From contig NZ_CP123991.1 in assembly GCF_029919255.1 (NCBI RefSeq), positions 1,047,110 through 1,111,109 on the forward strand: a stretch of DNA of 64,000 nucleotides, given 5' to 3'. The stretch's first letter is position 1; every line of letters begins with the position of its first letter. This DNA is from a cyanobacterium endosymbiont of Epithemia clementina EcSB. GTDB lineage: Bacteria > Cyanobacteriota > Cyanobacteriia > Cyanobacteriales > Microcystaceae. This document shows, piece after piece, positions 21,002-64,000 of this stretch. Both the position numbers and the translations under genes were made by a program. The notes under the pieces are model-generated. The model searched no databases and was not told the origin of the DNA. It was given only the letters and a program-made list of their open reading frames with translations.

Positions 21002-23014
21002 ATGTCTGTCCCCACTCCATCCTTACCCTCAACTAATTTTCCAATAACGGCGGTCATTGGACAAGAAGCTATCAAGTTTGCCTTACTTTTGGCTGCCGTT
21101 GATCCAGGGTTGGGAGGAGTTGTGATTGCCGGTCGTCGAGGAACAGCAAAATCTGTTTTAGCCAGGGGAATTCATGCTTTATTACCTCCGATTGAAAGGA
21201 TAAAAAATAACCCCTTTAACTGCGATCACAATAAACCCAGTGAATGGGACGACAACACTCAAGAACAATATCAAAATCTTGTTTTAGAAAATATTCCGAC
21301 AGAAATTATACCAGCTCCTTTTATTCAAGTTCCTATTGGGATTACTGAAGATAGACTATTAGGCTCAGTAAATGTAGAAGAGTCTATAGAAAAAGGAGAA
21401 GCAGTCTTTCAACCTGGATTATTAGCACAGGCACATCGTGGGGTTTTATATATTGATGAAGTTAACTTACTCGATGATCAAATTTCCAATCAGATATTGA
21501 CTGTTTTAACCGAAGGACGCAATCAAATTGAACGGGAAGGCATTAGTTTTCAACATTATTGTCGACCCTTATTAATTGCCACTTATAACCCAGAAGAAGG
21601 ACCCCTGAGACAAAATCTATTAGACCGCATTGCGATCGCCATCTATGCTGATTGTGTCTTAACTTTAGATCAACGAGTCCAAGCAGTAGAACGAGCTATT
21701 GGTCATGCCAATTCACCTCAAGCGTTTATAAGCCAGTATAACGATGAAATAAACGATATTAAAACTGAGATTATTCTCGCACGAGAATGGTTAAAAGAGG
21801 TTAAAATTACTAACGATCAGATTGCTTACTTGGTTGAGGAAGCTATCCGGGGAGTCACAGAAGGGCATCGCGCTGAACTCTTCGCCGTTCGAGCCGCTAA
21901 AGTAGCAGCAGCCCTAGAAGGACGTAATATTGTAACCCCAGGAGACCTAAAACGGGCAGTGGAATTGGTCATAGTGCCTCGTTCTACGATAACACAGCCT
22001 CCTCCTGAAGATGAGCAACAACCCCCGCCATCACCTCCTGAACAAACTCAAGATGAGTCTAACCAAGACCAAGAGAAACAAGAAGAAAACCAAGAAGACC
22101 CCGAACAAAAACCTCTAAATATTCCTGAAGAGTTCATTTTTGATGTAGAGGGAGTTATCATCGATCCTAATGTTCTTGTTTTTGCCCAAAAAGCCCAAAA
22201 ACAAGGAAATTCAGGAACTCGTGGCTTCATTTTTTCTGAAGACAGGGGACGTTACATCAAACCCATAATTCTTAAAGGAAAAGTTAAACGTATTGCCGTC
22301 GATGCAACCTTAAGGGCTGCGGCCCCCTATCAAAAATCTCGTCGTTTGCGTCATCCTGGTCGTAGTGTCATCTTTGAACAAGGAGATATTCGATCGAAAT
22401 ATATGACGAGAAGAGCAGGGGCATTAATTATCTTTGTGGTAGATGCGTCAGGGTCGATGGCCTTGAACCGGATGCAGTCAGCTAAAGGTGCAGTTATGCG
22501 TCTGTTAACAGAAGCCTACAAAAACCGCGACCAAGTGGCGTTAGTTCCTTTTAGAGGAGAACAAGCAGAGGTTTTATTACCTCCTACCCGTTCTATCTCT
22601 TTGGCAAAACGACAGTTAGAAACTTTGCCCTGTGGAGGTGGTTCACCTTTGGCACACGGTTTATCTCAAGCAGTTCATGTAGGAATAAATGCTAAGATGT
22701 CTGGGGATATTGGACAAGTTGTCATTGTTGCTATTACTGATGGACGGGGTAACATTCCTTTAGCCAAATCTTTAGGAGAATCTTTACCTGAAGGGGAAAA
22801 GCCAGATATTCAAAGTGAACTATTAGAAATTGCCAAAAAAACTCGGGCTTTAGGTATGAAATTGTTGATCATCGATACAGAAAAAAAATTCGTTTCTACA
22901 GGTTTTGGAAAAGAGTTAGCACAAACTGCAGGGGGAACTTACTATCAATTACCCAGAGCAACAGATCAGGCAATTGCACAAATGGCTAGAGAGGCGATCA
23001 CAGATTTAAAATAA
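21002..23014 (+). CDS. chlD: magnesium chelatase subunit ChlD
   Basis: ChlD is the AAA+/VWA subunit that with ChlI and ChlH inserts Mg2+ into protoporphyrin IX, the first step committed to chlorophyll. The 670-residue product has an N-terminal AAA+ domain ([14 protein letters not shown] near residues 43-56, [12 protein letters not shown]), a Pro/Glu/Gln-rich acidic linker (about 335-380) and a C-terminal von Willebrand A domain with the MIDAS motif DASGSM (about 479-484). Length and domains are complete. Its survival is notable because photosystem II genes at the other end of the window are decayed. A HIP1 octamer lies inside at 21632-21639. Confidence 0.96.
21632..21639. repeat. HIP1 octamer GCGATCGC
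   Basis: The highly iterated palindrome typical of cyanobacterial genomes, here inside chlD. Confidence 0.85.
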
Positions 23015-48948: not shown

Positions 48949-50895
48949 ATGAAATCCCCAACATTAACACCTTTCGGTTCTTGGAAATCTCCTATAACTG
49001 CGGATCTAATCGTCTCTGGAAGTATCGGACTAGGGGAAGTAACCTTCGATAATGAAGACATTTATTGGTTAGAATCAAGAGCAACAGAAGGGGGACGCAA
49101 TGTTCTCGTTAAACGTAGTGCTGATGGCCAAATCACAGATAAAACGCCTCAACCATTCAATGTGCAGACCCGTGTTCATGAATATGGGGGAGGAGCATTT
49201 TTGATTGTTGAAGGAACTATTTATTTCGTTAATTTTAAAGATCAACGCATCTATAAACAGTTACCCAATAGAGACCCTGAACCTCTAACCCCGGAAAATC
49301 GATGCCGCTATGCTGATTTTATCTTAGATTTTTCCAAAAATCGTTTAATTAGTGTGTGTGAAGATCACAGCAACCTAGGAATAGAACCAGAAAATACTTT
49401 AGTCAGCATCGACCTCAATACAGGTGAGGTTAATACCCTAGTTTCTGGACATGATTTTTATTCAAGTCCTCGTCTAAGTCATGATGGAACTAATCTTGCT
49501 TGGATTAGTTGGAATCATCCTAATTTACCCTGGGACCGAACAGAATTATGGTTAGCAGATTTGGATGAAAATGGTTCTTTAGGGCAGCCAATAAAGATTG
49601 CAGGAAGTTATGATGAGTCGATTTGTGAACCCCGATGGTCTTCCGACGGTCAATTATATTTTTCCAGTGATCGCATGGGATGGTGGAATCTATACCGCCA
49701 TACCCAAAAAGGGGAAGTTGTTCCCCTTTTTCCTCTGAATGGAGAATTTGCTTGTCCCCATTGGGTGTTTGGTCTATCTACTTATACGTTTATCTCGACA
49801 AACACCTTGGTTTGTACCTTCTGTCAAGAAGGACAGTGGAATTTAGCTACATTGGATACTGAAAAAAAACAGTTAACGCTTTTAGAAATTCCCTATACTG
49901 ATATTGCCTCGGTTCAAGCCAAAGACCATCAAGTTGTTTTCACTGGAGGATGTCCCACTAAACCCACAGCAATCGTTCATTTAAACCTAAAAACTGGCGA
50001 AACAACTATTCTAAAACAATCTAATGAGCTAGATATCGATGCCGGTCATCTGTCTACCCCTGAAATGATTGTTTTTCCCACCGAAAATGGTTTGACTTCT
50101 TATGCTTGGTACTATCCCCCCAACAATAAAGATCACATTTCTTTTAATGGAGAATTACCTCCCCTATTAGTCAAAAGTCATGGAGGGCCTACAGCCTGTG
50201 CATCTTCTAGTTTGAATTTACGGATCCAATATTGGACGAGTCGGGGATTTGGTTATCTCGACGTTAATTATGGAGGAAGTACGGGGTTTGGGCGGGAATA
50301 TCGTCAAAGGTTGGATGGTAAGTGGGGAATTGTGGATGTGGATGATTGTGTTAACGGGGCTAAATACTTAGCAGAACACGGATTGGTTGATGGTGATCGC
50401 CTAGCTATTTCTGGGGGAAGTGCTGGGGGATATACTACCCTTGCCGCGTTGACCTTTCGGAATACTTTTAAAGCTGGAGCAAGTTACTATGGGATCAGTG
50501 ATTTGGAAGCATTGGCTAAAGACACTCATAAATTCGAAAGTCGTTATTTAGACCGATTAATTGGAAAATATCCTGAAGAAAAAGCCATTTATCAAGAGCG
50601 GTCACCTATTTATTTTACCGAGAGTTTAAACTGTCCTGTTATTTTCTTTCAGGGATTAGAAGATAAGGTAGTTCCCCCCTCTCAAGCACAAATGATGGTA
50701 GATGCTATTAAAGAAAAAGGACTTCCGGTTGCTTATGTTCCCTTTGAAGAAGAACAACATGGATTTCGTCGCGGGGAAAATATTAAACGGGCTTTAGATG
50801 GAGAATTTTATTTTTACTCTCGAATTTTCGGCTTTGAACCTGCAGAAAAGTTAGAGCCAATCGAGATTACTAATCTAGTAGGATACCTAAGTTAA
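48949..50895 (+). CDS. S9-family (prolyl oligopeptidase / acylaminoacyl-peptidase-like) serine peptidase
   Basis: The 648-residue protein has an N-terminal beta-propeller (about residues 20-360, with repeats such as PRLSHDGTNLAWISWNHPNL and EPRWSSDGQLYFSSDRMGWW). A C-terminal alpha/beta hydrolase domain carries the nucleophile in ISGGSAGGYTTL, the Asp in FFQGLEDKVVPP and the His in EEEQHGFRRGEN. It should cleave short peptides in the cytoplasm. Length is normal and no damage is visible. No operon partner is evident. Confidence 0.93.
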   Translation: MKSPTLTPFGSWKSPITADLIVSGSIGLGEVTFDNEDIYWLESRATEGGRNVLVKRSADGQITDKTPQPFNVQTRVHEYGGGAFLIVEGTIYFVNFKDQRIYKQLPNRDPEPLTPENRCRYADFILDFSKNRLISVCEDHSNLGIEPENTLVSIDLNTGEVNTLVSGHDFYSSPRLSHDGTNLAWISWNHPNLPWDRTELWLADLDENGSLGQPIKIAGSYDESICEPRWSSDGQLYFSSDRMGWWNLYRHTQKGEVVPLFPLNGEFACPHWVFGLSTYTFISTNTLVCTFCQEGQWNLATLDTEKKQLTLLEIPYTDIASVQAKDHQVVFTGGCPTKPTAIVHLNLKTGETTILKQSNELDIDAGHLSTPEMIVFPTENGLTSYAWYYPPNNKDHISFNGELPPLLVKSHGGPTACASSSLNLRIQYWTSRGFGYLDVNYGGSTGFGREYRQRLDGKWGIVDVDDCVNGAKYLAEHGLVDGDRLAISGGSAGGYTTLAALTFRNTFKAGASYYGISDLEALAKDTHKFESRYLDRLIGKYPEEKAIYQERSPIYFTESLNCPVIFFQGLEDKVVPPSQAQMMVDAIKEKGLPVAYVPFEEEQHGFRRGENIKRALDGEFYFYSRIFGFEPAEKLEPIEITNLVGYLS

Positions 50896-63705: not shown

Positions 63706-63829
63706 TCACCTAGCTAAATGAATAAATAAAAAAAGAAGACCGAGGATAACAACTAAAAATAATCCTAGATTAAGGCCATATCTGGTTAAGTTTAACAGGT
63801 TGATAATTGGAATTAGAGTTTCTTTCCAT
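63706..63829 (-). pseudogene. psbL: psbL pseudogene (photosystem II PsbL)
   Basis: From an ATG at 63829 the minus strand reads MERNSNSNYQPVKLNQ and then hits a stop. A frame shifted by one continues LNLGLFLVVILGLLFLF. Intact PsbL is about 39 residues with the pattern MERTPNPNNQPVELNRTSLY...GLLLVFVLGILF, and the 124-base remnant has the same length and order. One frameshift and altered conserved residues show it is dead. It sits directly downstream of a psbF remnant, the standard psbEFLJ order. Confidence 0.85.
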
Positions 63830-63975
63830 AAGTTTCTCTTGTCGTTGAAGAAACTGTACAGCGGAGATAGACCGATGAAGAAGACTGTAGGGACAGCTAA
63901 AACATGAGCAAACAGCAATCTCATGGTAAAAGGGTGTTTTCTGAATTTGGCTATCAACAGCCTCACAAAGCTTAG
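63830..63975 (-). pseudogene. psbF: psbF pseudogene (cytochrome b559 beta subunit)
   Basis: The minus strand reads [20 protein letters not shown] followed by G, matching PsbF [20 protein letters not shown] but with the invariant WLAVHT segment changed. A frameshift then leads to VQFLQR, the usual C-terminal end, at 63842-63859, with no stop codon at the normal place. The heme-ligand His appears as FAH, shifted in context, and the frame runs on into the psbL debris. psbE would lie beyond the right edge of the window. Confidence 0.8.
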
Positions 63976-64000
63976 ATGTTCTCAGTTATTAGATTTATTC

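Follow-up and report, generated by a model that had tools for sequence, protein, structure and literature searches.

At the right edge of a 64,000-nucleotide stretch of the genome of EcSB, the cyanobacterial endosymbiont of Epithemia clementina (the window; G000:C1:1047110-1111109), an open frame runs through what look like remains of two photosystem II (PSII) genes. This raises the question of whether the locus holds a working psbEFLJ operon, a novel small membrane protein or the debris of lost photosynthesis, and, if the last, what it records about that loss. The EcSB genome is a single contig of 3,072,807 bp (99.78% complete), and the DNA past the right edge of the window could be read (L004). 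The following features are discussed:

63706-63966, minus strand: open frame of 86 aa with a GTG start, confirmed as an ORF
63710-63829, minus strand: psbL relic, in agreement with G036 psbL at 92 of 121 alignment columns, no match to PF02419
63839-63931, minus strand: psbF relic (cytochrome b559 beta), in agreement with G036 psbF at 78 of 94 alignment columns, PF00283 match at E 0.00044
63931/63932, no strand: tetR::psbF deletion junction, at which 2169 bp of G038 (L154 6932-9100) are absent
63932-64000, continuing past the window to about 64211 (L004 6321), minus strand: 5' fragment of a TetR-type regulator gene, placed by BLASTN and by alignment with EtSB and RgSB

Decayed psbF and psbL at the window edge

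Judged from their sequence, psbF and psbL at the edge of the window are decayed pseudogenes. In each of three same-genus genomes with intact loci, which served as references, a single BLASTN alignment spans both genes, with 192 of 245 columns identical in G036 (E 5e-51), 188 of 246 in G038 (E 3e-46) and 187 of 246 in G039 (E 2e-45). All three references carry psbE, psbF, psbL and psbJ motifs, and the EcSB relics resemble their intact operons in psbF-psbL order and in sequence. The homology is thus beyond chance, which disposes of the concern that PsbF and PsbL might score no better here than random sequence, and it bears out the original prediction of a psbF-psbL operon caught in decay with its gene order conserved. 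The frameshifts expected in both genes are also present. In psbF, the first 13 or so codons are gone, one base is missing between 63871 and 63870, and the stop codon is altered; psbL carries an additional base at about 63777 and lacks one base in a T run at about 63730, so that translation from its start gives MERNSNSNYQPVKLNQIWP and then a stop. Order and identifiability were therefore retained as predicted, and length, in the case of psbF, was not. The prediction also looked for PsbE and PsbJ sequence beyond the relics: psbE has been deleted, with TetR-type DNA in its place upstream of psbF, and psbJ is unrecognizable, as BLASTN homology stops a few bases past psbL.

Profile searches bear on these relics to differing degrees. 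In a whole-genome search at E<=10, the cytochrome b559 profile PF00283 matched only the psbF relic, at E 0.00138 and under its curated cut-off; the same profile finds matches in 11 of 14 control genomes at E<=10 and in 2 of 14 at E<=0.05, and the DNA alignment to relatives is the stronger proof. The PsbL profile PF02419 did not find the psbL relic in the genome (its best match, at E 0.83, lies elsewhere), as is expected with a frameshift in the middle of the gene, and DNA comparison was used instead. No second, intact psbEFLJ operon accompanies the relics, the sole PF00283 match being the relic itself; for psbL, little weight attaches to the profile search on this point.

Single-base indels, one of them within a T run, are what errors of sequencing or assembly could also produce in functional genes. 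We give this explanation next to no weight, since psbE, ycf48 and the start of psbF are absent altogether, the sister genomes EtSB and RgSB carry different lesions of their own at the same place, and the other PSII genes that were sought are broken as well.

A second question is whether the 86-aa frame could itself be a gene. The frame is open over 91 codons from stop to stop and keeps a stretch of PsbF that includes a histidine, presumably the haem ligand, so that one could imagine a small TetR-PsbF-PsbL membrane protein under selection, perhaps holding haem through this residue. Its composition speaks against this: from its start, the frame follows the TetR frame (RLLIA...HP), then the PsbF frame, then a middle portion that is out of register with both psbF and psbL, and finally the PsbL frame. 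PF00283 matches its residues 13-32 with 20.1 bits (E 0.00044), under the curated cut-off of 30. Moreover, no comparable frame exists in the two sister genomes, where nothing runs open from psbF to the end of psbL and the longest open frames at this place are 45 codons (RgSB) and 61 codons (EtSB). We therefore reject a conserved small protein at 63706-63966 and regard a selected chimera as highly improbable; the frame is a chance chimera and no gene. The concern that a frame spanning both relics might be mis-annotated was justified, and it should not be entered as a gene.

The wider prediction, that this cyanobacterium has lost PSII, is upheld by Pfam profile searches of the one-contig assembly, plasmids lying outside it. 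Profiles for psbA/psbD, psbB/psbC, psbE/psbF and psbO find no intact copy. The D1/D2 profile (PF00124) matches three times, two of these matches overlap, and the number of internal stops ranges from 2 to 5; the CP43/CP47 profile (PF00421) has one fragment with 3 stops, under the cut-off; and the PsbO profile (PF01716) has one fragment with 5 stops. The Ycf48 profile has no match in the genome, and the photosystem I core is represented by four stop-interrupted pieces only. G036, G038 and G039 each give stop-free matches to the D1/D2, CP43/CP47, PsbO and Ycf48 profiles.

Two further observations concern photosynthesis genes in this genome. Around G000:C1:3059732 (L123) lies a psbC-psbD relic that has lost the greater part of psbD, with two pieces that match the G036 locus on either side of the gap. 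Within the window, a ChlD-like Mg-chelatase frame of 670 aa (21002-23014, plus strand) is free of stops despite the broken cores of both photosystems. This frame fits the report that most of the chlorophyll pathway persists in EcSB; the pathway is retained in some spheroid bodies according to the available text of that study (PMC12903740).

The junction between tetR and psbF

The DNA just upstream of psbF aligns not with psbE but with the 5' part of the TetR-type regulator ORF of G038 (L154), at 150 of 197 columns identical (BLASTN, E 3e-37). An initial multiple alignment had suggested a psbE relic at this place, a candidate dropped once BLASTN showed tetR DNA. Roughly 80 bp are missing from inside the fragment near 64015, and its lower end is fused to psbF. 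In G038, the intact locus reads, on one strand, TetR-type regulator, rubredoxin (rubA), Ycf48, psbE, psbF, psbL and psbJ, and the first four ORFs are identified by Pfam as TetR_N (PF00440, 2.4e-15), Rubredoxin (3.9e-21), PSII_BNR (5.1e-136) and Cytochrom_B559a (1.7e-25). That locus contains rubA, ycf48, psbE and psbJ and its frames are intact, unlike in EcSB, where G038 positions L154 9101 and 6931 are now adjacent. The sequence lost at the junction thus comprises the remainder of tetR, rubredoxin, ycf48, psbE and the start of psbF. This large deletion, to which the locus owes its shape, was beyond the view of the original prediction. ATCC is present at both ends of the deleted segment in G038, and the deletion possibly occurred through this short repeat.

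EcSB, EtSB, RgSB and the marine symbiont EpSB align through the rpmG-rpsR-rnr neighbourhood next to the relics, whereas in G036 and G038 psbE and rnr lie at separate sites. A scan of 22 of 80 RNase R loci (L008-L029) found no psbE, psbF, psbL or psbJ motif, indicating that the side of rpmG-rpsR-rnr is not the usual place of psbEFLJ.

Taken together, the locus is very probably a non-functional fossil of a tetR-rubA-ycf48-psbEFLJ neighbourhood in a diatom spheroid-body (diazoplast) genome; counting against this are the PF00283 score under the curated cut-off and the failure of PF02419 to find the psbL relic. The identity of this genome as that of a spheroid body agrees with its lost or broken photosystem genes and with two trees. 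In the RNase R tree (12 rows: seven genomes of the genus and five chosen from other loci), EcSB, RgSB, EtSB and EpSB form a clade with support of 100/100, to which G038 is sister at 99/99. The peptidase tree (six rows, EtSB being left out because its copy is broken) agrees, at 100/99 and 100/100. Both trees set the symbionts that they contain apart from relatives with intact photosystems and place G038 closer to them than G036. G038 is a same-genus genome of 5.2 Mb in 80 contigs with intact photosystems, and we infer that it is free-living. The peptidase gene itself lies in the window (48949-50895, plus strand, 648 aa); it is intact in EcSB and in broken pieces in EtSB.

The scar in other diatom symbionts

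Two sister symbiont genomes were compared, EtSB from Epithemia turgida (G037, 2,794,318 bp), whose first genome paper reportedly dates from 2014, and RgSB from Rhopalodia gibberula (G040, 3,020,309 bp). Both share with EcSB the deletion inside tetR and the tetR::psbF junction, and each differs in its later lesions: in RgSB, psbF carries an internal stop and there are other indels; in EtSB, psbF has no start and no internal stop, and the psbL indel is a different one. The shared tetR deletion and junction, combined with differing later damage, argue for a common deletion in the ancestor of the three.

We note separately that a psbD relic lies 7 kb to the right of the window (L180 5894-6519; G000:C1:1117893-1118518), 70% identical to G036 over 658 columns. 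It is clear in EcSB, EtSB and RgSB and weak at the corresponding place in EpSB (against G036 E 5e-4, against EcSB E 5e-6); this comparison shows presence and no shared lesion.

Whether the scar extends to EpSB, the marine symbiont of E. pelagica (G041, 2,483,960 bp), is a harder matter, in that the tetR part is certain and the psbF part weak. A profile built from EcSB, RgSB and EtSB matches the EpSB tetR remnant at E 7e-29, a single BLASTN alignment (EcSB L004 6062-9249) spans that remnant, the internal tetR deletion is the same as in EcSB, and the tetR similarity fades where the other three genomes join psbF. Past this point, the profile alignment continues for 32 columns into psbF, farther than in any of 60 controls with shuffled columns. 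The extension adds 0.9 bits (92.2 versus 91.3), a score that one of the 60 controls reached. When the alignment was anchored at the junction, the EpSB score was reached by 1 of 3000 shuffles against EcSB, 6 of 3000 against RgSB and 139 of 3000 against EtSB, and by 19, 20 and 585, respectively, of 3966 other EpSB windows; an anchored continuation of tetR did not fit, 2086 of 3000 shuffles reaching its score. An ungapped block of 42 bases has 23 matches to both RgSB and EtSB; counting the observed place itself, that number is reached at 1 (RgSB) and 2 (EtSB) of 27,918 offsets. Against EcSB the block has 21 matches (31 offsets), and against G038 and G036 it has 19 each (170 and 124 offsets).

These observations have to be weighed against the possibility that marine EpSB and the freshwater spheroid bodies lost the psbE-psbF region separately, the older tetR lesion being all that they have in common. 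PF00283 has no match in EpSB, psbF-psbL profiles found nothing at this place, and unanchored local searches failed. In unanchored local alignment, shuffles reached the score in 97 (EcSB), 128 (RgSB), 6 (EtSB) and 155 (G038) of 2000 cases, and other EpSB windows score equally well. The small gain in bits past the junction and the poor anchored result for EtSB likewise fit independent loss. On the other side stand the certain tetR remnant with its shared deletion, fading at the psbF join, the reach of the profile alignment into psbF beyond every control, and the anchored scores for EcSB and RgSB set beside the misfit of a tetR continuation. We regard independent loss as a real but lesser possibility, under which the scar would be uninformative on a single PSII loss for the whole group, and consider that EpSB probably shares the tetR::psbF scar.

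Photosystem II loss in the spheroid bodies

That diatom spheroid bodies have lost PSII is already known, as the available text of two earlier reports makes clear (PMC2246100, PMC5638926). In 2008, pseudogenes psbC* and psbD* in the spheroid body of Rhopalodia gibba were taken as evidence of lost photosynthesis (PMC2246100). These are, like the EcSB locus, broken PSII genes in the same symbiont group; they concern other genes, and the text at hand describes no deletion junction as a shared marker. EtSB and RgSB were reported in 2017 to have no functional photosystem I or II genes and many pseudogenes (PMC5638926); their genomes hold the same tetR::psbF junction as EcSB, although "psb" does not occur in the main text of that paper, and the text at hand names neither psbF, psbL nor the junction. 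A comparison of six rhopalodian symbionts records photosystem I and II proteins as absent (PMC12903740), and marine symbionts have been placed in a clade with EtSB and RgSB (PMC8831587), both according to the text available. We found no mention of the psbF-psbL/tetR junction locus in the accessible parts of the open literature, subscription papers, preprints and supplements being outside this scope; among the matches listed, the only one joining spheroid bodies, Rhopalodia and psbE was a paper on plastid genome reduction (PMC8763093). The PSII relics themselves are ordinary reductive evolution, and the junction is the new element.

The nitroplast UCYN-A is described as another nitrogen-fixing cyanobacterial symbiont without PSII (PMC11070190). 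The two genomes that we infer to be UCYN-A (G002 and G003, 1.5 and 1.4 Mb) have no PF00283 match at E<=0.05, unlike EcSB with its fossil. As a separate observation, PF00283 at E<=0.05 also finds nothing in G024 (5.8 Mb in one contig, completeness given as 100%), although nearly all its same-genus relatives have a match; assembly, masking or real loss may each be the reason.

A plausible history of the locus would begin when PSII was no longer needed by the symbiont and a one-step deletion could have removed rubredoxin, the Ycf48 assembly factor and psbE in a common ancestor. Afterwards, psbF and psbL would have decayed in each lineage on its own, through point mutations and indels of single bases; this order, deletion first and indels later, is read from what is shared among the three genomes only. 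The ancestor carrying the deletion is likely to have been ancestral to marine EpSB as well. PSII might also have been lost earlier through a lesion elsewhere, the tetR::psbF deletion being a later consequence.

A junction defined to the base is unlikely to arise twice, making it usable as a character for the descent of marine and freshwater diazoplasts. On balance, we favour the view that it reflects one ancestral event in all rhopalodiacean diazoplasts, marine and freshwater, whose ancestor was already without PSII. The junction could thereby help decide whether they descend from one already non-photosynthetic symbiont, a scenario open in PMC12903740, whose available text sets out multiple acquisition, a single marine and a single freshwater origin and leans to a single marine ancestor. 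If the scar is shared, PSII loss would be older than the split between marine and freshwater lineages, contrary to the multiple-acquisition scenario still listed in 2026. If this view is true, oxygenic photosynthesis would have been lost once and, on the simplest account, the symbiont acquired once; the removal of psbE with its two PSII-linked neighbours may then rank among the first steps of PSII loss. The junction would thus serve to mark the timing and the number of losses of oxygenic photosynthesis among diatom diazoplasts.
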